The notes beneath the pieces are model-generated. The model searched no databases. It was not told the origin of the DNA and worked only from the letters and a program-made list of their open reading frames with translations. From Hallerella porci (lineage in GTDB: Bacteria; Fibrobacterota; Fibrobacteria; Fibrobacterales; Fibrobacteraceae): a DNA stretch of 64,000 nt. Within the stretch, counting starts at the first letter, position 1. Every line of letters starts with the position of its first letter. Below, in pieces: positions 30,771 to 63,290 of the stretch. The translations under genes and the position numbers were made by a program. Location of the stretch: NCBI RefSeq assembly GCF_003148885.1, contig NZ_QGHD01000002.1:62001-126000 (forward strand). The letters run 5' to 3'.

Positions 30771-30803
30771 TAGAAAAGCAAGAGAAATTCTCTTGCTTTT
30801 CTA
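30771..30803. terminator. Bidirectional terminator between lysR and ppk1
   Basis: A perfect 16-bp inverted repeat (30771-30786 with 30788-30803) around a one-base centre. It includes the ppk1 stop codon. Its T-rich arm serves both converging genes. Confidence 0.8.
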
Positions 30804-32834
30804 TTCTTCACATTGCATTTCTTGTGCGTTTACCAGCTTTTCATCTGAAGAAGATTCAATTGGAATTTTGATGTATTTTCCGCTAGGTTGCAAGAGGCGC
30901 GCTTTCACATTATCTAAAAGCATAATGTTTAAAATGCTTCGCAAACGATTTTTGATTTCTTTCGATTTAATCGGCGTGATCACTTCAACGCGATTTTCTG
31001 TATTGCGAGTCATCATGTCCGCAGAACCGATAAAAATTTGTTCTTTTGCGCCTTTGCCAAATGCATAAATGCGTGAATGTTCCAAGAATTTTCCGACGAT
31101 ACTTCGAATAGTTATGTTATCTGTAATTCCTGGAATGCCTGGGAGCAAGCAACAAATACCGCGAATAATCAAATTGATTTTTACGCCGGCTTGACTTGCT
31201 TCGACGAGTTTTTCAATCACATCAACATCGGTCAAAGAATTCATTTTAAATGTTAATGCACCTTCGCTTTTCTTTGCAATTTCAGAATCGATGAGTTGCA
31301 AAATTTTTGATTTTAAACCAAGTGGCGACACGAGCAATTTTGAATACTTGCCACCTAAATTTCCGATGCACACATTTTTGAAAAATTCAACAGCATCTTT
31401 TCCGATTTGAACATCCGATGTCATGAACGAAATATCGGTATAAAGTTTACATGTTTTTTCGTTGTAATTGCCCGTGCCGATTTGCGTAATGTATTGAATT
31501 TGCGAATCATTTCGACGCGTAATCAAACAGATTTTACTATGCACTTTATAGCCTTCGGGGCCATATAAAACATGGCAACCCGCATCTTCTAATCTTTCAG
31601 ACCAGTCGATATTATTGAGTTCATCAAAGCGTGCGCGCAGTTCAATTAAAGTCGTGACTTCAATTCCGTTTTCTGCAGCACGGCACAAATAATCCACCAA
31701 TTTTGCGCGATGCGCCAGTCGATAAATCGTAATTTTAATCGAGAGCGTATTCGGATCTTCAGCGGCTTCTTTAATGAGTTTTAAGAACGGATCCATTTTT
31801 TCATACGGATACGAAAGCATTAAATCGCGTTCAGAAATTTGCGAAATCATCGAAGTTTTTGCATCCACACTTTTAGAATCAACAGGCGAGAATAGCGGAT
31901 ACGAAAGTTTTCCAGAAAGTTCTACCGGTAAAATTTCAGGCAAACTAAAAGGAAATTTCATTTTTAAAGGAGCAGAAGTGACAAAGATTTGTTTCTTTTG
32001 CACTTTCAATGTGCGCAAAATAAATTCTTCTAATTCGGACGATAATGATTTTGCGGCTTCAACGCGCACAATAAAACTCACGCGGCGTTTTTTCAAAATG
32101 AGTTTCATTTGATTGCGATAATCTTCGGAGCCGTCAGTTTCTTCGTCCGTTGTCAAATCGCCATTGCGCGTAATGCAAATAATATTTTTATCCGAGATTT
32201 TATACATCGAAAAAATTTCATCGATGTGTTCTACAATAAGTTCTTCGGCAAAAATAAATCGTTTTGAATCATCCCCAATTGGAATAATTTCTGGAATCGT
32301 CGCTGGGCATTGCACGAGACCTAAAATATTTTTGTTTTTATTTTTTAAGGAGGCGACGATATAAGAAATTTTACTTTGCAAATTAGGAGTCGGATGACGC
32401 GCATCCACAATTTGCGGCGAAAGCAATGGCAAAATGTTATCTTGATAATATTCTTTCAAAAATTTCTTTTCTTCTTTGTTGCATTTTTTATAAGCGACAA
32501 ATTCGATGCCTTGTTCAGAAAGTTCGCTTTTAATTTGCGAATAAGTCGAATCTTTTTTCTTATACAATTTTGATGTTTCCGAAAAAATCGCATCGAGCTG
32601 TTCGCTAGCAGTCATTTGGCATTTATTATCTTTCCAATGTTTTTTAATTTCTGCCATTTTAAAAAGAATGCCTACGCGAATCATAAAAAATTCATCTAAA
32701 TTCGATGTGAAAATGGAGACGAATTTTAAGCGTTCCAAAAGCGGAACAGTTTTATCATTTGCTTCTTCTAAAACGCGTTCGTTAAAACGCAGCCAAGAAA
32801 GTTCTCTATTTTGTTTGTAGATTTCATGTTTCAT
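30801..32834 (-). CDS. ppk1: Polyphosphate kinase 1
   Basis: A 677-residue PPK1, polymerising the gamma phosphate of ATP into polyphosphate. The N-terminus NRELSWLRFNERVLEEA and FFMIRVG, the central TIYRLAH, LIELRARFDELNNIDWSERLEDAGCHVLYG, and KVHSKICLITRR (autophosphorylated His region) are diagnostic. RGICCLLPGI and IGSADMMTRN complete the phospholipase D-like fold. It is the last gene of the pst-phoU-ppx-ppk run, 2 bases after ppx, and its stop lies within the terminator stem. Confidence 0.94.
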   Translation of the reverse strand: MKHEIYKQNRELSWLRFNERVLEEANDKTVPLLERLKFVSIFTSNLDEFFMIRVGILFKMAEIKKHWKDNKCQMTASEQLDAIFSETSKLYKKKDSTYSQIKSELSEQGIEFVAYKKCNKEEKKFLKEYYQDNILPLLSPQIVDARHPTPNLQSKISYIVASLKNKNKNILGLVQCPATIPEIIPIGDDSKRFIFAEELIVEHIDEIFSMYKISDKNIICITRNGDLTTDEETDGSEDYRNQMKLILKKRRVSFIVRVEAAKSLSSELEEFILRTLKVQKKQIFVTSAPLKMKFPFSLPEILPVELSGKLSYPLFSPVDSKSVDAKTSMISQISERDLMLSYPYEKMDPFLKLIKEAAEDPNTLSIKITIYRLAHRAKLVDYLCRAAENGIEVTTLIELRARFDELNNIDWSERLEDAGCHVLYGPEGYKVHSKICLITRRNDSQIQYITQIGTGNYNEKTCKLYTDISFMTSDVQIGKDAVEFFKNVCIGNLGGKYSKLLVSPLGLKSKILQLIDSEIAKKSEGALTFKMNSLTDVDVIEKLVEASQAGVKINLIIRGICCLLPGIPGITDNITIRSIVGKFLEHSRIYAFGKGAKEQIFIGSADMMTRNTENRVEVITPIKSKEIKNRLRSILNIMLLDNVKARLLQPSGKYIKIPIESSSDEKLVNAQEMQCEE

Positions 32835-32836
32835 TT

Positions 32837-33733
32837 TTAGTTTCCCTTAATTTGTTTCATTAAATAACCTTCGCGAATGCCGAAATTGCTTTTGCAAATA
32901 TTCGTGCATTCAAAATAGCGCGCAATCGTTTTCAAAATGATCATCCCCGGAATGATTGTGTGAATGCGATGCGGCGCCGTTTGTAAAATCGCGGTCAGAT
33001 ATTCTTTTTTTTCGGCTTTGAAAAGTTTTAAAATGTCTTTGAATTTTTCGTAAGACATTTCATTGGTTTCGTTGTTGCACAAGCGATTATAAATTTTAAA
33101 TGTATTGCGAACGCTTCCGCCGACTCCATAAATTTTTTTCTGATACGCCGAATCGGGCACATCGATTCCATCTAAAAATTCTAAAACAGCGCCTTTAATT
33201 TTTTGCTGTTCCATTTTAGTTGGGATAATGCGGCTTACATATTTTTCGTAACTGTTCAAAGAACCAATCGGAAACGAATACGATTTCACGATTTGATTAT
33301 TCTTAAAATAAACAAGTTCTGTACTTGCCCCACCGATATCAACTAAAATGCCTTCGTAAACATTTAAGCAAAGCGTTGCGCCTAAAAAACTGTATTCAGC
33401 TTCTTCTTTTCCCGAAAGAATTTTCACACGGATAGAAGTGACGAATAAAACTTTTTTCAAAACCGTTTCGCGATTTTTGACAAGGCGCAAACTCGCTGTT
33501 GCAAAGGCAAAAATTTGCGTCACTTGATGCGAAAAAATTTTCGTTTTGAAATCATTTAACACGGCGATTAAGCGCTTAATCCCATCGGATTTTAAGTTTC
33601 CATTTTCAACGTATGAAGCAAGGCCAGCGACACTTCTTTTTTTGTCAATCAACTTAAAATCATTTCCGATGACTTCGTAAATGCACAAGCGAATCGTATT
33701 GGAGCCGATATCGATGATGGCATAATTTTTCAT
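32837..33733 (-). CDS. ppx: Exopolyphosphatase / Ppx-GppA phosphatase (first copy)
   Basis: A 298-residue Ppx/GppA-family enzyme degrading polyphosphate or pppGpp. It shows the actin-like phosphate motifs IIDIGSNTIRLCIYE, ATASLRLVKN, SGKEEAEYSFLG, LVDIGGASTELV and GVGGSVRN. It is about 300 residues, the short form without the C-terminal HD domain. ATG 33733 gives the canonical start one base after phoU's stop. A second family member lies at 52767-53675. Confidence 0.9.
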   Translation of the reverse strand: MKNYAIIDIGSNTIRLCIYEVIGNDFKLIDKKRSVAGLASYVENGNLKSDGIKRLIAVLNDFKTKIFSHQVTQIFAFATASLRLVKNRETVLKKVLFVTSIRVKILSGKEEAEYSFLGATLCLNVYEGILVDIGGASTELVYFKNNQIVKSYSFPIGSLNSYEKYVSRIIPTKMEQQKIKGAVLEFLDGIDVPDSAYQKKIYGVGGSVRNTFKIYNRLCNNETNEMSYEKFKDILKLFKAEKKEYLTAILQTAPHRIHTIIPGMIILKTIARYFECTNICKSNFGIREGYLMKQIKGN

Positions 33734-33734
33734 T

Positions 33735-34394
33735 TTACACCTGCTTTGGAATGATGCGACTGCCGGTTTCTTCAAAGATTGCCCAACGCGCAACATTCAC
33801 GGCATGGTCGCCAATGCGTTCCAAATATTTTGCAATCATAAACGAATCGATTACATTATCTGCATTTGCAGAACTAGAACGAATGGATTCAATCAATTCT
33901 TTTTTCGATTCGGTAAATGCTCGATCGATAATATCATCGACGCAACAAACATCTTTTGCCATCGTGACATCTTTTAAGATGAATGCATCTACCGATTGCG
34001 AAATCATTTGTCCGATTTTTTCAATCATCAAAGGAATCGTAGAAAGCTGCACAGGCGATGCATTTTTATTCGAAAGCGTGAGCACAATTTCGGAAATGTC
34101 TGCGCATTGATCGCCGATGCGTTCTAAATCGCTCACCATTTTAAGCGATGCCGAAATAAAACGCAAATCGTGTGCAACTGGCTGCTGGCTTAATAAAAGG
34201 CGCAAGCAGAGCGTTTCAATATCTTTCATTTGCTGATCGATTTTTTTATCGTCTTCGATATTTTGCTCCGCTAAATTTTTATCGCCATTGAGTAAAACTT
34301 TCGTCGCATTCGTAAACGATTCTTCGACTAAGTTTCCCATTTTGATAATCCCTTCGGTAAGAGATTCCAATTCTAAATTGAAGTTTTCTCGCAT
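33735..34394 (-). CDS. phoU: Phosphate signalling protein PhoU
   Basis: A 219-residue all-helical PhoU with two repeats. Each has the metal-binding E(D)xxxD-type motif: DLERIGDQCADISE and YLERIGDHAVNVA. It links the Pst transporter to the PhoR/PhoB-type sensor and represses the regulon when phosphate is plentiful. No phoR/phoB is in the window. The start overlaps the pstB stop as TAATG. Confidence 0.94.
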   Translation of the reverse strand: MRENFNLELESLTEGIIKMGNLVEESFTNATKVLLNGDKNLAEQNIEDDKKIDQQMKDIETLCLRLLLSQQPVAHDLRFISASLKMVSDLERIGDQCADISEIVLTLSNKNASPVQLSTIPLMIEKIGQMISQSVDAFILKDVTMAKDVCCVDDIIDRAFTESKKELIESIRSSSANADNVIDSFMIAKYLERIGDHAVNVARWAIFEETGSRIIPKQV

Positions 34395-35149
34395 TATCCA
34401 AATCTCCCTGTGATGTAATCTTCTGTTTTTTTATTTTTCGGCATCGAAAAAAGTTGTGTGGTGTCGCCGTATTCAATCACTTCGCCAAGTAAAAAGAATG
34501 CGGTTTTATCGGACACGCGAGTCGCTTGCTGCATATTGTGCGTGACCATCACAATCGTGTAATTCTTTTTGAGTTCTAAAACCAAGTCTTCAATTTTCCC
34601 AGTCGAAATCGGGTCCAAAGCGCTTGTCGGTTCATCCATTAAAAGAACTTCTGGAGAAATCGCCAAGGCGCGCGCAATGCATAAACGTTGCTGCTGACCG
34701 CCCGAAAGTCCAAGCGCACTTTTATTTAAGCGGTCTTTGAGTTCTTCCCAAACGCCTGCATTTTTAAGCGAAGTTTCTACAATTTCATCGAGGACTTTTC
34801 GATTTTTAATTCCATGCGTACGCGGACCAAAAGCGATGTTATCATAGACGCTCATCGGAAACGGATTTGGTTTTTGGAAAACCATTCCCACTCTTTTTCG
34901 AAGTTCATTCACATCGAAATCTTTGTAAATATTTTTTCCTTCGAGTTTGATATCGCCTTTGATTTTACAACCTTCGACTAAATCGTTCATCCGATTTAAC
35001 GATTTTAAAAGCGTGCTTTTTCCGCAACCCGAAGGACCGATGAACGCCACAATTTCATTGGTGGGAATATTCAAATTCACATTTTTTAATGCGTGAAAAT
35101 TCCCGTAATAAAGTTCCATATTCTGAATAGTTAATTTATACGAATTCAT
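34394..35149 (-). CDS. pstB: Phosphate ABC transporter ATPase PstB
   Basis: A 251-residue ATPase of the Pst high-affinity phosphate importer. Walker [10 protein letters not shown], signature LSGGQQQR, Walker B VLLMDEP followed by TSALDP, switch His in [21 protein letters not shown] and the [16 protein letters not shown] segment are PstB-specific. It is separated from pstA by one base (TAATATG). Confidence 0.95.
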
Positions 35150-35150
35150 A

Positions 35151-35960
35151 TTAAACCTTTTTAATTTTATTGGCTAGTTTATTTGAAAACCAGTTGATGA
35201 TTAAAACGAGCAAAATCAAAATCACTGCAGTGGCGTAAGCTTCGCCCGTGTGAAATCCTTCGCGCGAAAGTTCATACATGTGAACCGCCAAAGATCTGCC
35301 CGAAGAAAATGCGCTCTTTGGAAAATCAGCGACCGTTCCTGCCGTATAAATTAACGCAGCCGTTTCACCGACAACGCGACCAACCGCTAAAATTACACCC
35401 GATAAAATTCCAGGAACAGCAGCCGGCAAAACGACAGAACAAACTGTTCTTATTTTTCCAGCGCCAAGTCCGTAAGAACCTTCGCGGTAACTATCGGGAA
35501 CCGATTTTAAAGCTTCTTCAGTTGTGCGCAAAATGAGAGGCAAAATCATCATCGAAACTGTGCAAATGCCTGCCACCAAAGAATAGCCGCAGCGCAGTGT
35601 TGTCACAAAGAAAAGCATTCCAAAAAGTCCATACACAATCGAAGGAATTCCCGAAAGCGTTTCTGCAGTTAAACGCACAAGCGATACGATTTTATTTCCG
35701 CGACTTGCGTATTCGACCAAGTAAATGGCTGCAAAAATTCCAAGCGGAGCGGCAACTAAAATAGAGCCCACCACCAAAATGATTGTGTTTATAATCGACG
35801 GTAAAAACGAAACGTTTTCCGAATTATATTCTAGCGAAAATAACGATGGTTTTAAATACGGAATGCCGTTGACTAAAACATAGACCACTAAAAATGCCAT
35901 CGATAAAACGGTAAGCGCCATCGAAAATTTTACAGCGTAACGCAAAATTTTACTGCTCAT
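35151..35960 (-). CDS. pstA: Phosphate ABC transporter permease PstA
   Basis: A 269-residue inner-membrane permease with six helices. It shows the [15 protein letters not shown] and [17 protein letters not shown] segments and the coupling loop [12 protein letters not shown]. The [15 protein letters not shown] segment is characteristic. Start overlaps the pstC stop as ATGA. Confidence 0.93.
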
Positions 35961-36829
35961 GCTTTACCTCTTCTTTTAAGAATTGCAAAGGCTGCATTGA
36001 TGATTAAAATAAAGGTGAAAAGCACAACGCCTGTAGCGATTAAAGCTTCGCGGTGTAAATCGGTAGCGTATCCCATTTCAAGCACAATGTTTGAAGTTAA
36101 AGTACGCACGCCGTTTAAGATTCCCGTGGGCATTCTCGCTTGGTTTCCGGCGACTAAAATCACCGCCATCGTTTCACCGATTGCACGACCGAGCCCAAGC
36201 ACAATCGCAGCGACGATTCCCGATTTTGCAGCCGGAAGCACTGCAAAAAATACGCTTCGTTCATGAGTTGCGCCAAGTGCTAAAGCACCTTCGTAATAAC
36301 TGTTCGGAACCGCGCGAATGGCAGCTTCGGATACCGAAATGATAGTCGGTAAAATCATCATTCCAAGCAAAAGCGAAGCCGATAAAATGCTTGCGCCACT
36401 TCCGCCGAAATGCGTGCGCACAAAAGGCACAATTACGACGAGCCCAAAAAATCCATAAACAACCGACGGAATTCCTGCGAGCAAATCCACCGCCGGCTTT
36501 AATTTTTTATGAATTTTTTCCGAGCAAAATTTTGCTAAATAAACGGCGGAAAAAATTCCGACCGTCACTCCAATCACAAGTGCACCAAGCGTTACATACA
36601 AACTTCCTAGAATCATCGGAAGGATTCCAAAAAGCGCCGGTTCATCGGTTGGAGCCCAAGTTTTTCCGAAGATAAAATCGGTAAATCCGATTTTATGCAT
36701 CGCCGGTATTCCGTTTGCAAAAAGGAATACGCAAATCAAAAACACAAAGAAAATGCAAGTCAAAGCCGAAAGTAAAAACACTTTCGACATGACACTTTCT
36801 TTGATTTTATTTTTCGTCAGTAAATTCAT
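35957..36829 (-). CDS. pstC: Phosphate ABC transporter permease PstC
   Basis: A 290-residue inner-membrane permease. FTDFIFGKTWAPTDEPALFGILPMILGSL, LAGIPSVVYGFFGL and GRAIGETMAVILVAGN are PstC hallmarks. It begins only 3 bases after the porin stop, so the porin gene is cotranscribed. A second ATG (codon 14) is possible but the first fits spacing. Confidence 0.93.
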   Translation of the reverse strand: MNLLTKNKIKESVMSKVFLLSALTCIFFVFLICVFLFANGIPAMHKIGFTDFIFGKTWAPTDEPALFGILPMILGSLYVTLGALVIGVTVGIFSAVYLAKFCSEKIHKKLKPAVDLLAGIPSVVYGFFGLVVIVPFVRTHFGGSGASILSASLLLGMMILPTIISVSEAAIRAVPNSYYEGALALGATHERSVFFAVLPAAKSGIVAAIVLGLGRAIGETMAVILVAGNQARMPTGILNGVRTLTSNIVLEMGYATDLHREALIATGVVLFTFILIINAAFAILKRRGKA

Positions 36830-36832
36830 AAC

Positions 36833-37840
36833 TTACTTGATGGTTGTTGTAATTCTTGCAGCAAGTGCGACATCCGAAACTTCATTTTCGCTATACACCG
36901 AAACTTGTGCCTTAGTGCGGCTTCCTAATTTTTTCACAATGCCTACAGCCCAACCGAGTTCATCTGCATCTTTATTTAATTCATCGCGATCTTTTACATA
37001 TTCAAGTTCTGCAAATGCTTTATCAAAAATTCCTGCGGTCGGAATTTCAATTCCCGCATAGAACGGGAAATATTTGGTGTCTTGAGCGTATTCCGGTTTC
37101 ACGGCAGTTTTCGCTTCGATATTTGCATCGTTTACATCGTCATCTTTTCCGGTGATAATCATCGCAGCTTCACCATAGACAGAGAAATTTTTCGCCATAT
37201 TGAATTTTGCGCGGACATTGGCGCGATGCGTTACAATCGCGGTATATTGAATCGGGTCAATAACATTGGCACGGTAGCCTACGCCTAGCGAAAGTGCTTC
37301 GCCGATTTTTACATCTTCGGTCACACGAATGTAGCCTTGATTAAAATTTCCATCGCTCGTCGCAAGCATTACATTCAACTGCGAATTACCAAGTTTTAAT
37401 CCGCCTTCGAATGCGTCATGCGAATAATCTCTCGACAAAAATCCGCGTTTCGAAATATTCTTATCCAAATACGCACCAAAATTTCCGCCGTTTTCGGTAT
37501 CGGTTTTCCAATGACCGAATTTCAAATTAAGTCCTAAATTATTCCACTTGTAATTGCCGTAATAAGTGTCCGCTTGAAAACGATCAGCGCCATTATTAAA
37601 GCTCGGGCCATACATACGAATCGTTACTTTTGCATCGAAATCTTCGGACTTATAATCGCCACCGATATTGGCGCGGAACCAAAATCCGTCGAGGTTATTA
37701 TCTTTATCGTTGTCGTACATCGCTTTCGATGCTTGGCTTTGAATATTTCCATTCAAAGTAAATTCGCCATCAGCAGCACTTGCAATTCCAACAGCAGCAA
37801 GTAAAGCGAGACCGAAACTGGATTTTTTCATCTGTGTCAT
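36833..37840 (-). CDS. Outer-membrane porin-like protein, likely phosphate-regulated
   Basis: A 335-residue protein with a signal peptide (MTQMKKSSFGLALLAAVGIASAADG, cleavage likely after ASA). The rest is a beta-barrel pattern of alternating polar/hydrophobic strands with Asp/Asn-rich turns, ending in LAARITTTIK. No OprP/OprO homology is provable by eye. Its position as first gene of the pst run suggests an anion/phosphate porin of the Pho regulon. AAAGGA precedes ATG 37840; a second ATG at 37831 is in frame. Confidence 0.75.
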   Translation of the reverse strand: MTQMKKSSFGLALLAAVGIASAADGEFTLNGNIQSQASKAMYDNDKDNNLDGFWFRANIGGDYKSEDFDAKVTIRMYGPSFNNGADRFQADTYYGNYKWNNLGLNLKFGHWKTDTENGGNFGAYLDKNISKRGFLSRDYSHDAFEGGLKLGNSQLNVMLATSDGNFNQGYIRVTEDVKIGEALSLGVGYRANVIDPIQYTAIVTHRANVRAKFNMAKNFSVYGEAAMIITGKDDDVNDANIEAKTAVKPEYAQDTKYFPFYAGIEIPTAGIFDKAFAELEYVKDRDELNKDADELGWAVGIVKKLGSRTKAQVSVYSENEVSDVALAARITTTIK

Positions 37841-37896
37841 ATTTTATCCTTTGGGCAAAAGCCCTGTTAAATGACACTCCAAAATTAAAAGGTGTA

Positions 37897-37937
37897 TGTA
37901 AAGACTGAAGGGGCTCTTTTGTAAAGATTGTGTGAAG
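37897..37937. promoter_or_regulatory. Candidate PHO box region between porin and pstS
   Basis: TGTAAAG at 37920-37926, 4 bases, TGTGAAG at 37931-37937: two 7-bp direct repeats 11 bp apart, the geometry of PhoB-type boxes. Another TGTAAAGA lies at 37897-37904, 23 bp upstream. It sits in the shared regulatory gap of the divergent porin-pst operon and pstS. The binding protein is inferred. Confidence 0.5.
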
Positions 37938-38059
37938 TATTTTTCGAAAAATTTTTCTTTACTCGGATTTTACATGAAACGCAATTTGCATTTTACACGC
38001 GAGTTTTAACTTATAAGCGTCCAAAACAAAAACACTTAAATCATTTCAAGGAGTTCATC

Positions 38060-38926
38060 ATGAACAAGAAAAAAATTATCGGCGCACTCGCAGGTCTTGC
38101 AATTCTTGGAGGAATTGCCGCATGCAAAGATGAATCAAAACCTGTCGGATTTGATTCGTCTCGAGAAATTTCTGTGATTACGCGTGAAGCCGGCTCAGGC
38201 ACACGCGATGCATTTACAGAACTTGCAGGAGTTTTAGTCAAGCAAGACGGCAAAAAGAAAGACAACACAACTCTTGAAGCGTTGACAATCGACGGCACGC
38301 AAGGTGTGATGTCAACCGTCGCCGGAAACGAATACGCCATCGGTTACATTTCTTTGGGCTCGTTAAATAATACGGTAAAAGCTTTGCAAATCGACGGCGT
38401 GAGCGCAGACAAATTAAATGTGAAACGCGGAACCTATCCCATTGCGCGTCCGTTCAACATCGCCTTCAAAGGAAAAGTCGATGAAGTCACTCAAGATTTT
38501 ATTGACTTTATTATGAGCGCCGATGGCCAAGCAATCGTCGATGCAAATGGTTACGTAAGCGTGAACGAAGGCAAGCCCTACGAAAGCAAAAATTTGAAAG
38601 GAAAAATTGTAATCGCAGGATCTTCGAGCGTCTCGCCGGTGATGGAAAAATTGAAAGAAGCGTACGAAGCAAAAAATCAAAATGTGCAAATCGAAATTCA
38701 AACAAACGATTCTTCTTCGGGAATGCTCGCTGCAAAAGAAGGCACATGCAACATCGGCATGGCTAGCCGCGATTTGAAAGCTTCCGAAAAAGAAGTTCTC
38801 ACCAGTTTAACAATTGCGCGCGACGGCATCGCTGTTATCGTGAACAATAAAAATCCGCAAACCAATTTGAGCAAAGAAACTCTTCGCCAAATTTACACCG
38901 GACTTATCCGCAACTGGAAAATCTAA
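38060..38926 (+). CDS. pstS: Phosphate-binding lipoprotein PstS
   Basis: A 288-residue periplasmic binding lipoprotein of the phosphate importer. Lipobox IAAC with Cys22 after MNKKKIIGALAG. The phosphate-binding motifs are ISVITREAGSGTRDAF, GTQGVMSTVAGN and IAGSSSVSPVMEKL, plus SGMLAAKEGTCNIGMASR. AAGGAG precedes ATG 38060. The order of the two PstS halves is swapped relative to E. coli (the REAGSGT half first), as in several other phyla. It diverges from the rest of the pst genes. Confidence 0.9.
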   Translation: MNKKKIIGALAGLAILGGIAACKDESKPVGFDSSREISVITREAGSGTRDAFTELAGVLVKQDGKKKDNTTLEALTIDGTQGVMSTVAGNEYAIGYISLGSLNNTVKALQIDGVSADKLNVKRGTYPIARPFNIAFKGKVDEVTQDFIDFIMSADGQAIVDANGYVSVNEGKPYESKNLKGKIVIAGSSSVSPVMEKLKEAYEAKNQNVQIEIQTNDSSSGMLAAKEGTCNIGMASRDLKASEKEVLTSLTIARDGIAVIVNNKNPQTNLSKETLRQIYTGLIRNWKI

Positions 38927-61901: not shown

Positions 61902-63290
61902 TTAGAATCCGAGAGTCGCCGGCTTCACGTACTTACCATTCAGCAACTGACTCATCATCATCTGCAGAATATCACTAAAGTAGCTCGTTGTAGAAAGCGT
62001 CATCTGCTTTGCATTAAAGATATTGGTGCAGGCATCAACCCAAGCATCGGCGCCAGCCATACCGGTTAAGCACCAAGCCCCCCACCATTCCATCGGAACT
62101 TTAGACATTTCTTTGTCACTGCCCACAGCCAAATTCCAAGAATATTTCACCGCAGGAATCTGAGCCGGATCATTGTTCGAACGCGTTGCGATAAATGTAT
62201 TCAAAGTATTCAAGATGGTAGCAGCGCGTTCATCTTGGAACCAGTAATAATCCCAAGCCAAACGCCACGGAATACGCACCGATTCCTTGTCAAAGCGCCA
62301 ATAACTCGCTTGCGCTGAATTATTATTCGGATCCACAGCAACACCAGCGCCATTGCACCAATCAGGGAAAACGCCCGTGCCAGCGGCTTGCACTTGTTGC
62401 ATAAAGGCATATTCGGCATCCAAAACACCCTTCCAATCATGTGTGGGATCTACAGCAGCAAACAAGCGAAGCGCCACCGGAGAGAAATAGCTCAAGTTGT
62501 AAGCCGGATCAGCCCCAGTCCACATCGGCGTATCTCCCGAATAGAGAAGCAAATTTGTCGGGTTGACTTCATAAGTCCAAAGCGCATTGATCAAAGTCAA
62601 CGCATCTTCTAAATAGGCGGCATTTCCGGTTTGATAATACGCAATCACGAGCGAAGCAGCGATATCCAAGTCCGCATCCGTCGCACTCGCATCATCGCCA
62701 ATATCCCAGCTAAAGGACGAAGTAAGCCAAGGCATCAAAGCGTGTCCGCTTGCATACGAAGTATTGCGATACGCTTTGCTATAAACCCAAAGACGGTTAT
62801 ATGCATCCATATCGCCTTGGAAAAGCGTAATTAACATACCATAACCGATTCCTTCCGAAACGGTACAGCCGCGCTTATACATATTGGTGCCTTGTGCTTC
62901 ATCAATTTGGCAACCCGCATAGTTATAAGTTGACCAAATTACACGAGCTGCAGCCAATCCTTGAGCATTATAAGCACCAAAAATTTCCCCAAACTGAGCC
63001 CCTAATGTGGGATACTTTGTCGCTTCTTCTTCTTGAGTAGTATAATGGAAACCTTTCCAAGTCGGATACAGCGCATCGGTATACAAAGCATTCGCCGTCG
63101 CCGGAAGGCGTGATGTCTTCGCCACAGGAACATTTCCACTCGATCCGCCCGCAGAACTGGTCGGAATTATCACAGAACCCGAAGAGGTCGGATCCACGGG
63201 ATCTGGGCTCGAAGAGCTGTCGCTCGAGCAAGCGTTCAAGCCGAACATCGCACACAAGGCGACAGTGCAAAGGGGAAGTTTTAACTGCAT
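61902..63290 (-). CDS. Glycoside hydrolase family 8 lipoprotein
   Basis: A 462-residue exported GH8 enzyme. Lipobox GLNAC (Cys21), then a Ser/Pro/Thr-rich linker (22-58), then the catalytic domain. The GH8 signature TDADLDIAASL is at 204-214 and the general-acid Glu is in VSEGIGYGM (Glu146). WGAWCLTGMAGADAW and WFQDERAATILNTL are consistent. Members are endoglucanases, lichenases, chitosanases or reducing-end xylanases; this cannot be settled by eye. ATG 63290 has GGAGAT upstream. A lipid anchor is unusual for a cellulase and would hold it at the cell surface. Confidence 0.9.
   Translation of the reverse strand: MQLKLPLCTVALCAMFGLNACSSDSSSSPDPVDPTSSGSVIIPTSSAGGSSGNVPVAKTSRLPATANALYTDALYPTWKGFHYTTQEEEATKYPTLGAQFGEIFGAYNAQGLAAARVIWSTYNYAGCQIDEAQGTNMYKRGCTVSEGIGYGMLITLFQGDMDAYNRLWVYSKAYRNTSYASGHALMPWLTSSFSWDIGDDASATDADLDIAASLVIAYYQTGNAAYLEDALTLINALWTYEVNPTNLLLYSGDTPMWTGADPAYNLSYFSPVALRLFAAVDPTHDWKGVLDAEYAFMQQVQAAGTGVFPDWCNGAGVAVDPNNNSAQASYWRFDKESVRIPWRLAWDYYWFQDERAATILNTLNTFIATRSNNDPAQIPAVKYSWNLAVGSDKEMSKVPMEWWGAWCLTGMAGADAWVDACTNIFNAKQMTLSTTSYFSDILQMMMSQLLNGKYVKPATLGF

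Follow-up and report, generated by a model that had tools for sequence, protein, structure and literature searches.

Background

Pho-controlled phosphate porins are known in Pseudomonas, where OprP and OprO are made together with the phosphate-starvation genes and have been proposed to feed the importer PstSCAB. Both are trimeric 16-strand barrels with an arginine ladder and belong to the Pfam family Porin_O_P. Here we analyze a locus of comparable gene content in Hallerella porci (Fibrobacterota; Fibrobacteraceae), contained in a stretch of 64,000 nucleotides of contig NZ_QGHD01000002.1 (assembly GCF_003148885.1, contig positions 62,001 to 126,000), hereafter the window, whose coordinates we use throughout. 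At this locus a gene for a predicted outer-membrane porin-like protein stands at the head of the genes for the phosphate ATP-binding cassette (ABC) importer PstCAB, divergent from the gene for the phosphate-binding protein PstS. Judged by its genes, the locus is like OprP/OprO in that the porin-like protein is grouped with phosphate-starvation genes and a PstSCAB importer. It is unlike them in that we find no sequence relation between the porins, that the gene lies inside the pst operon, and that the clade of this protein, with its putative pore and putative selectivity, has sulfate-, molybdate- and phosphonate-linked members. Systems that combine a Pho-controlled porin and an ABC importer are known in kind; new, as far as we have found, are the unrelated family, the place inside the operon and the oxyanion-linked paralogues.

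Other parts of the locus also have described counterparts. The PHO box recognized by PhoB or PhoP is given as a direct repeat of 11-nt units in the portion of PMC4415409 available to us; the arrays in the window share such units with a conserved core, and differ in their TTTACA core, in an extra unit at 23 bases, in forming mirrored sets for divergent promoters and in running reversed at the PiT/NptA promoters of Fibrobacterota. Linkage of pst to a polyphosphate kinase gene, as in the window, occurs in the Streptomyces supercluster pap-pitH1-pstSCAB-ppk, where the gene order is different and where, in the portion of PMC7866108 consulted, no porin is named, whereas the window has one. The binding protein of the window is circularly permuted. 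PstS 2 of the Gram-positive Streptococcus pneumoniae (SP_2084; PDB 4h1x), 48% identical to it, has the same permuted order over the whole domain, and Tp0684 (MglB-2) of Treponema pallidum is likewise a binding lipoprotein permuted in nature, probably serving an ABC importer; the authors who described Tp0684 suggested that its permutation is an adaptation to tethering (PMC4990184, in the portion available). Tp0684 has a type I sugar-binding fold and another break point, whereas the window PstS has a phosphate-binding fold cut just before an R-E-x-x-S-G-T loop.

In the present analysis we propose, with a probability of roughly 0.7, that the locus is the high-affinity phosphate unit of a Fibrobacteraceae Pho regulon and has its own outer-membrane channel.

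Results

The porin-like gene (36833-37840, minus strand) encodes 335 amino acids with a signal peptide-like N-terminus, and its product falls in the importer clade of a hitherto unnamed Fibrobacterota porin family. A preliminary description of this DNA had it end 3 bases ahead of pstC within a one-strand run through phoU, ppx and ppk1, divergent from pstS, and this layout is what we find. The 3-base gap (36830-36832) is followed, all on the minus strand, by the permease genes pstC (35957-36829; TIGR02138, 286 bits) and pstA (35151-35960, overlapping pstC by 4 bases; TIGR00974), the ATPase gene pstB (34394-35149; TIGR00972), phoU (33735-34394; TIGR02135), the exopolyphosphatase-like ppx (32837-33733; PF02541) and the polyphosphate kinase 1 gene ppk1 (30801-32834; TIGR03705, 742 bits), with the run ending at 30801. 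The open reading frame of ppx as listed reaches 33796, and its likely start is at MKNYAII. On the plus strand, pstS (38060-38926) encodes a lipoprotein of 288 amino acids. PstC, PstA, PstB, PhoU and Ppk1 pass their NCBIfam cut-offs, and PstS and Ppx (TIGR03706) fall below theirs.

To a large extent this layout is conserved. We searched the 167 genomes available for the phylum and matched PstS in 70 and the porin in 123; the stretches around the matches show pstS divergent from porin-pstC-pstA-pstB-phoU in 11 genomes of two genera: the window genome, G140, G141, G143 and G144 of its own genus, and G061, G067, G098, G103, G105 and G107 of genus g6. Sister genera carry pstSCAB-phoU-phoB-phoR as a single run (G057, G149, G147) or parts of that run (G059, G030). 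G083, also of g6, has pstB and phoU and, for pstA, a short fragment; its examined stretch, which has masked runs, gave no match to pstC, pstS or the porin. The polyphosphate genes are another matter. The preliminary description had coupled membrane passage, signalling and polyphosphate turnover in one regulon; membership in the Pho regulon agrees with the PHO-box-like repeats, and polyphosphate turnover as a general part does not hold, as a close ppx-ppk1 pair follows phoU in the window genome only (1 of the 11 with the layout). At that place G067 shows a diverged ppk1-ppx pair (30% and 23%). No such genes were seen immediately behind phoU in the nine remaining genomes, of which G143 has its contig end at this point and G098 has a ppk1-like start about 5.5 kb further on. 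The ppx-ppk1 tail lies outside the conserved unit and is largely private to the window genome.

The gap between porin and pstS holds two mirror-image arrays of repeats. The array facing the porin-pst operon (37897-37937, minus strand) reads CTTCACA (37937-37931), CTTTACA (37926-37920) and CTTTACA (37903-37897), at steps of 11 and 23, and a -10-like hexamer, TAATTT (37882-37887, minus strand), lies 10 bases past its last TTTAC unit. It is this array, read on the opposite strand, that the preliminary description had reported as TGTAAAG (37920-37926) and TGTGAAG (37931-37937) at an 11-bp step, with a further repeat, TGTAAAGA, from 37897; each of these is present. The mirror array facing pstS (37958-37996, plus strand; TTTAC at 37958, 37969 and 37992, again at steps of 11 and 23), absent from that description, completes the two modules and has its own -10-like hexamer, TAACTT (38007-38012, plus strand), also 10 bases past the last unit. 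Both promoters of the window carry the direct repeats at 11-nt steps that define a PHO box, plus the unit at 23.

Loss of the repeat in relatives had been named as grounds for rejecting the idea; when the divergent regions of the 11 genomes are aligned, the repeat is kept at both promoters with fixed spacing. Reading in gene direction, each of the 22 promoters has TTTAC units at -23 and 0, with a TA[AC]NTT hexamer ten bases beyond the last unit in all 22 and the start codon 59-69 bases beyond that unit; these promoters come from 11 related genomes and do not amount to 22 independent observations. A further TTTAC unit at -34 is found in all 11 pstS promoters, and the porin side is degenerate there (CTTCACA in the window). 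In its core, TTTACA, the repeat resembles the PhoP box of Bacillus more than the PHO box of E. coli. The two promoters are alike beyond the boxes, much as an inverted duplicate of a single promoter would be: within 37841-38059 and its counterparts, most of the 11 genomes have GTCATTCAA-like bases after each of the -10 hexamers.

The same repeats precede other phosphate genes, where the preliminary description had proposed looking for them. Across the 2.85 Mb genome, CTTTACA-N4-CTTTACA with at most one mismatch occurs at two sites, the window and a position upstream of a phosphate transporter gene; it is this two-unit pattern at one mismatch that recovers the pst site. A whole-genome scan for three TTTAC units at 11-bp steps, again with at most one mismatch, gives 4 placements at 3 loci, all of them ahead of phosphate transporters: PiT (PHO4)-phoB-phoR (L110:5118-5155), a second PiT (PHO4) gene (L114:8151-8189) and a Na/Pi cotransporter gene (L118:6632-6659). 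Over 870 kb of Fibrobacterota DNA there are 41 placements scoring at least 15/18, and 41/41 lie at pst/porin or PiT/NptA genes, against 6 placements for the backward motif and 0 and 1 for two shuffled motifs; the loci making up the 870 kb were chosen partly for pst or phoB content, and the 41/41 is not a genome-wide figure, its genome-wide counterpart being the three-unit scan. Because the repeats are conserved at both promoters, are present before other phosphate transporters and are linked to phoB-phoR, the view that they behave as PHO boxes is supported at the sequence level. Behind the Na/Pi cotransporter gene lies a tandem repeat array (L118:8439-8873) that is open on both strands (MQRCGKAFNTSNSS-like and RCMDEFDMLNGLSQ-like).

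The orientation of the boxes divides the transporters. At each of 12 pst promoters (10 genomes) the units point in the direction of the gene, and at each of 13 PiT/NptA promoters (11 genomes) they point the opposite way; two of the 12 (G103 and G067) sit in a divergent region and were assigned by orientation, and without them the pst count is 10/10. A hypothesis that would fit this pattern is that PhoB activates pst and represses PiT/NptA, swapping uptake systems at low phosphate. In Streptomyces, pitH2, a pit gene with PHO boxes, needs PhoP for its activity (PMC7866108, portion available). A limited search of the open literature found no fitting paper tying box orientation to repression in Bacillus. 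G142, of the same genus as the window, has no PstB match at E 1e-70, yet a PiT gene with boxes is present.

Beyond the pst operon, the porin has paralogues beside other importers. The porin search gave at least about 150 places, and we examined the context of 85 distinct porin genes, with eight far homologues and two duplicates excluded; of the 60 loci in the main sampling, 59 were chosen before their neighbours were known and the other (L357) was an already known locus. The contexts are pst (11), sulfate (31), molybdate (2), 2-aminoethylphosphonate (AEP; 1), "core", meaning beside an OmpA-like lipoprotein gene (32), and other (8). More than half (45/85) adjoin oxyanion importer or assimilation genes, and all 45 belong to one clade. 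Among the 31 sulfate rows, cysN lies upstream on the same strand in 28, a sulfate-binding protein gene lies directly downstream in 20, and 17 have both. In G148 and G149, the molybdate contexts consist of modA, modB, an ABC ATPase gene whose match to modC is below the cut-off, and the porin; the AEP context, in G083, consists of the porin, phnS2, phnT2, a permease gene and phnX/phnW. Against NCBIfam, neighbours matching modA, modB, sulfate-binding protein, cysT, cysW and phnX score above the cut-offs, and those matching phnS2 and phnT2 below. In one genome a TTTAC array (G147:C90:1509-1536) separates L052, a core-context porin, from the adjoining OmpA-like lipoprotein gene, to which it points.

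The tree separates an importer clade of 48 rows from a core clade of 37 with a support of 99 in the Shimodaira-Hasegawa-like approximate likelihood-ratio test (SH-aLRT). The importer clade is made up of the 45 oxyanion-context rows, two "other" rows and one core-context row (L052). Within it, the pst porins form one clade (SH-aLRT 99), which the AEP member joins (97), and the sulfate label requires two changes on the tree. This distribution suggests a single family of outer-membrane gates, each tailored to its oxyanion, in which the window porin would be the phosphate member of a paralogous clade, each member with the genes of one oxyanion, and no one-off fusion.

Sequence comparison places the protein in no described porin family. 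Neither Pfam (at E 0.1) nor NCBIfam yields a match for the window porin, in keeping with the earlier remark that it is not a recognizable OprP relative. Across 21 members of the family, Pfam hits are weak and scattered (best E 0.0017; Porin_4 at 0.015 and OmpA_membrane at 0.083 in one member each), none of them matches Porin_O_P, and a profile of the 21 finds no PDB chain at E < 0.01, giving weak scattered hits only (best E 0.039). The protein is predicted to be a barrel with a pore. Its beta-type alternation of polar and apolar residues scores 21 in the window porin against 13.6 in shuffles, with 5 of 1000 shuffles as high; PstS, as a control, is not raised (9 against 11.5).

Two positions, in the numbering of the window porin, stand out. 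Residue 210 is R or K in 45/45 oxyanion-context porins and in 1 of 31 core-context porins (L052 set apart); of the remaining core-context porins, 28 have Y and two have F. At residue 212, 10 of the 11 pst porins carry a basic amino acid, which no other recounted row does. With regard to the 16-strand barrel and arginine ladder of OprP, what the pst porins show is a basic 210 in 11/11 and a basic 212 in 10/11, and the window porin the alternation. A putative basic ladder that included residue 206 was not retained, as this residue is basic in just 2/11 pst porins.

The phosphate-binding protein encoded across the gap has a permuted chain. Profile matches to the window PstS run in swapped order, the C-terminal half of the canonical domain preceding the N-terminal half; when the halves are swapped back, the match becomes a single stretch (profile 41-294). 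The TIGR02136 cut-off of 206.6 bits is missed in both forms (native 186.3, swapped 184.2). The Fibrobacterota PstS proteins that we extracted comprise 29 permuted (one a fragment) and 7 canonical, from chosen loci, and the ratio gives no frequency. When they are swapped back, without the leader and with the fragment skipped, 28/28 full-length permuted proteins match in a single stretch (median 207 bits), where in the native order the match is split in two (median best 103 bits). The predicted structure agrees: the PstS model, with a mean predicted local distance difference test score (pLDDT) of 90.7, superposes on 4h1x over 254 residues (Z 36.2, root-mean-square deviation 1.1), itself a one-stretch match at 31-287, and canonical PstS align over about half of the model with shifted ranges (e.g., 1twy chain 136-276 on model 29-168). 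By sequence and by predicted structure, then, the halves are swapped and the fold is kept. The break point lies just ahead of the R-E-x-x-S-G-T loop, whose R42, E43, S46, G47 and T48 are invariant in 18 rows.

The permuted form extends well beyond the phylum. A scan of one genome per species gave at least 556 PstS relatives, and the best 80 of these are all permuted; being the top matches to a permuted query, they are uninformative on the canonical share. Three of the 80 loci are from Fibrobacter and 77 from outside, mostly Bacillota by record title, with Treponema, Anaerolineaceae and a "Bacteroides" record among them, and pstC lies near pstS in 78. In trees of PstC+A+B, the permuted rows of Fibrobacterota fall in three places. 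A constraint of all Fibrobacterota to one side of a branch is not rejected (approximately unbiased (AU) test, p 0.54, on 59 of 98 rows, with 11 long, odd or near-identical rows dropped and the rest thinned), and we did not retain a transfer of the pst operon from Bacillota, a single Fibrobacterota side being compatible with this result. No paper describing a permuted PstS was found in the open literature that we searched; in the main texts on CPSARST and CIRPIN, the word phosphate appears in neither, and PstS was not found in the CIRPIN text either. Four genomes of family f7 (G007, G009, G024, G025; L099, L101, L103, L072/L073) have two permuted PstS genes each, and several f7 PstS proteins (L069, L070) have AQG at the expected lipobox cysteine.

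Discussion

PhoU is generally known to report phosphate flux to PhoR, and the locus can be read as follows. At low phosphate, PhoR would phosphorylate PhoB, which we infer to bind the two mirror-image arrays of TTTACA-type units and so to switch on pstS in one direction and porin-pstC-pstA-pstB-phoU (here plus ppx-ppk1) in the other. The porin, if it is an open channel, would admit phosphate to the periplasm, the lipid-anchored permuted PstS would capture it, PstCAB would pump it inward and PhoU would signal the flux to PhoR. In the window genome, Ppk and Ppx could also store phosphate as polyphosphate.

A number of observations weigh against this reading. Genera other than those two with a permuted-type pstS were examined and no porin was found in their pst run, and at E 1e-70 PstB is matched in only 7 of 80 g6 genomes, most of which may rely on PiT-type uptake. 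On the regulatory side, at exactly 14/18 the motif has 30 of 44 placements at phosphate transporter genes and 14 elsewhere, and relaxed patterns are not enriched over their backward readings: 26 vs 70 for two units with up to two mismatches, 164 vs 410 for the relaxed three-unit pattern in the same genome, 151 vs 136 over 15 genomes, and 41 vs 42 for the first loose pattern. Because loose patterns are not enriched, the PHO-box case rests on the best matches, on conservation and on position. The PhoB of this genome scores 218.7 bits against the TIGR02154 cut-off of 296.2, which 0 of the 167 genomes of the phylum pass; that it works like PhoB nevertheless stands as a prediction, because it carries the Receiver and Trans_reg_C domains and phoR is adjacent.

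For the porin, the AlphaFold2 model, built on a 3-row alignment, has a mean pLDDT of 30.5, and 11 of the 31 sulfate assignments rest on cysN alone. The state of residue 210 tracks clade and not context, being basic also in all three further rows of the importer clade (L050 and L052 among them); L303 and L315, the first-branching pair of the core clade in the drawn tree, have K there, so that a basic residue may be the older state at this site and an aromatic one the derived state. Since the state follows clade and may be ancestral, a basic 210 is no proof of anion selectivity. R206 is basic in all sulfate and core porins, as against the two pst porins, and net charge is negative, with a median of -10 for pst porins and -5 for core porins.

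Much of this would suit a general diffusion porin without selectivity that a rearrangement brought into the operon and whose co-regulation merely raises permeability under starvation. The negative charge of the pst porins, the possibly ancestral 210, the poor pore model, the 32 relatives beside OmpA-like lipoprotein genes and the sister genera with pst and no porin all lean that way. We nevertheless consider it unlikely, if worth keeping in view, as a single clade occurs with four different oxyanion systems, the pst porins form one clade in the same place in 11 genomes, and a basic 212 is confined to them among the recounted rows. A further alternative is that the porin-like protein forms an oligomeric, lipid-trapping barrel of the PopA kind with no channel, members of the PopA superfamily (FSU_2404 and FSU_0230) being reported in Fibrobacter succinogenes (PMC12228718, in the portion available). 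This strikes us as very improbable: the linkage to solute uptake genes suits a channel better, and the porin profile matches no PDB chain at E < 0.01 (the presence of PopA in that PDB copy was not checked).

The arrays, for their part, might serve another regulator or be plain -35 elements, with PhoB uninvolved, and the PhoB score below the curated cut-off would be in keeping with that. We think this improbable, given 11-bp steps that fit the PHO-box definition (PMC4415409, portion available), best matches at phosphate genes only, and phoB-phoR following pst in one run in sister genera. As for PstS, a rearrangement seen in a single draft genome can be an artefact of assembly or gene calling. 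Here that possibility is negligible and already refuted by these results, with 28/28 full-length Fibrobacterota proteins matching the canonical profile in one stretch only once swapped back, 77 of the best 80 public loci, all permuted, lying outside Fibrobacter, and a crystal structure, 4h1x, having the permuted order.

The preferred reading, a Pho-controlled phosphate unit with its own channel, can be extended to the porin family as a whole. One porin clade may have split into channels dedicated to phosphate, sulfate, molybdate and 2-aminoethylphosphonate, with a few lumen residues (210 and 212) setting selectivity, and the outer membrane would then be no passive sieve but a layer of ABC import made up of modules, each matched to its substrate. 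We advance this extension tentatively, as a possibility with somewhat less than even odds.

With the permuted PstS, frequent in Bacillota and already crystallized, there are two chain topologies among phosphate-binding proteins, and the two can be compared in tethering and in docking to PstCAB. The reversed boxes offer a simple test of whether orientation sets activation (pst) or repression (PiT/NptA) by one regulator. If true, a porin clade that tracks four oxyanion systems would be a natural series in which to study the tuning of a barrel to a single anion, the core members serving as baseline.

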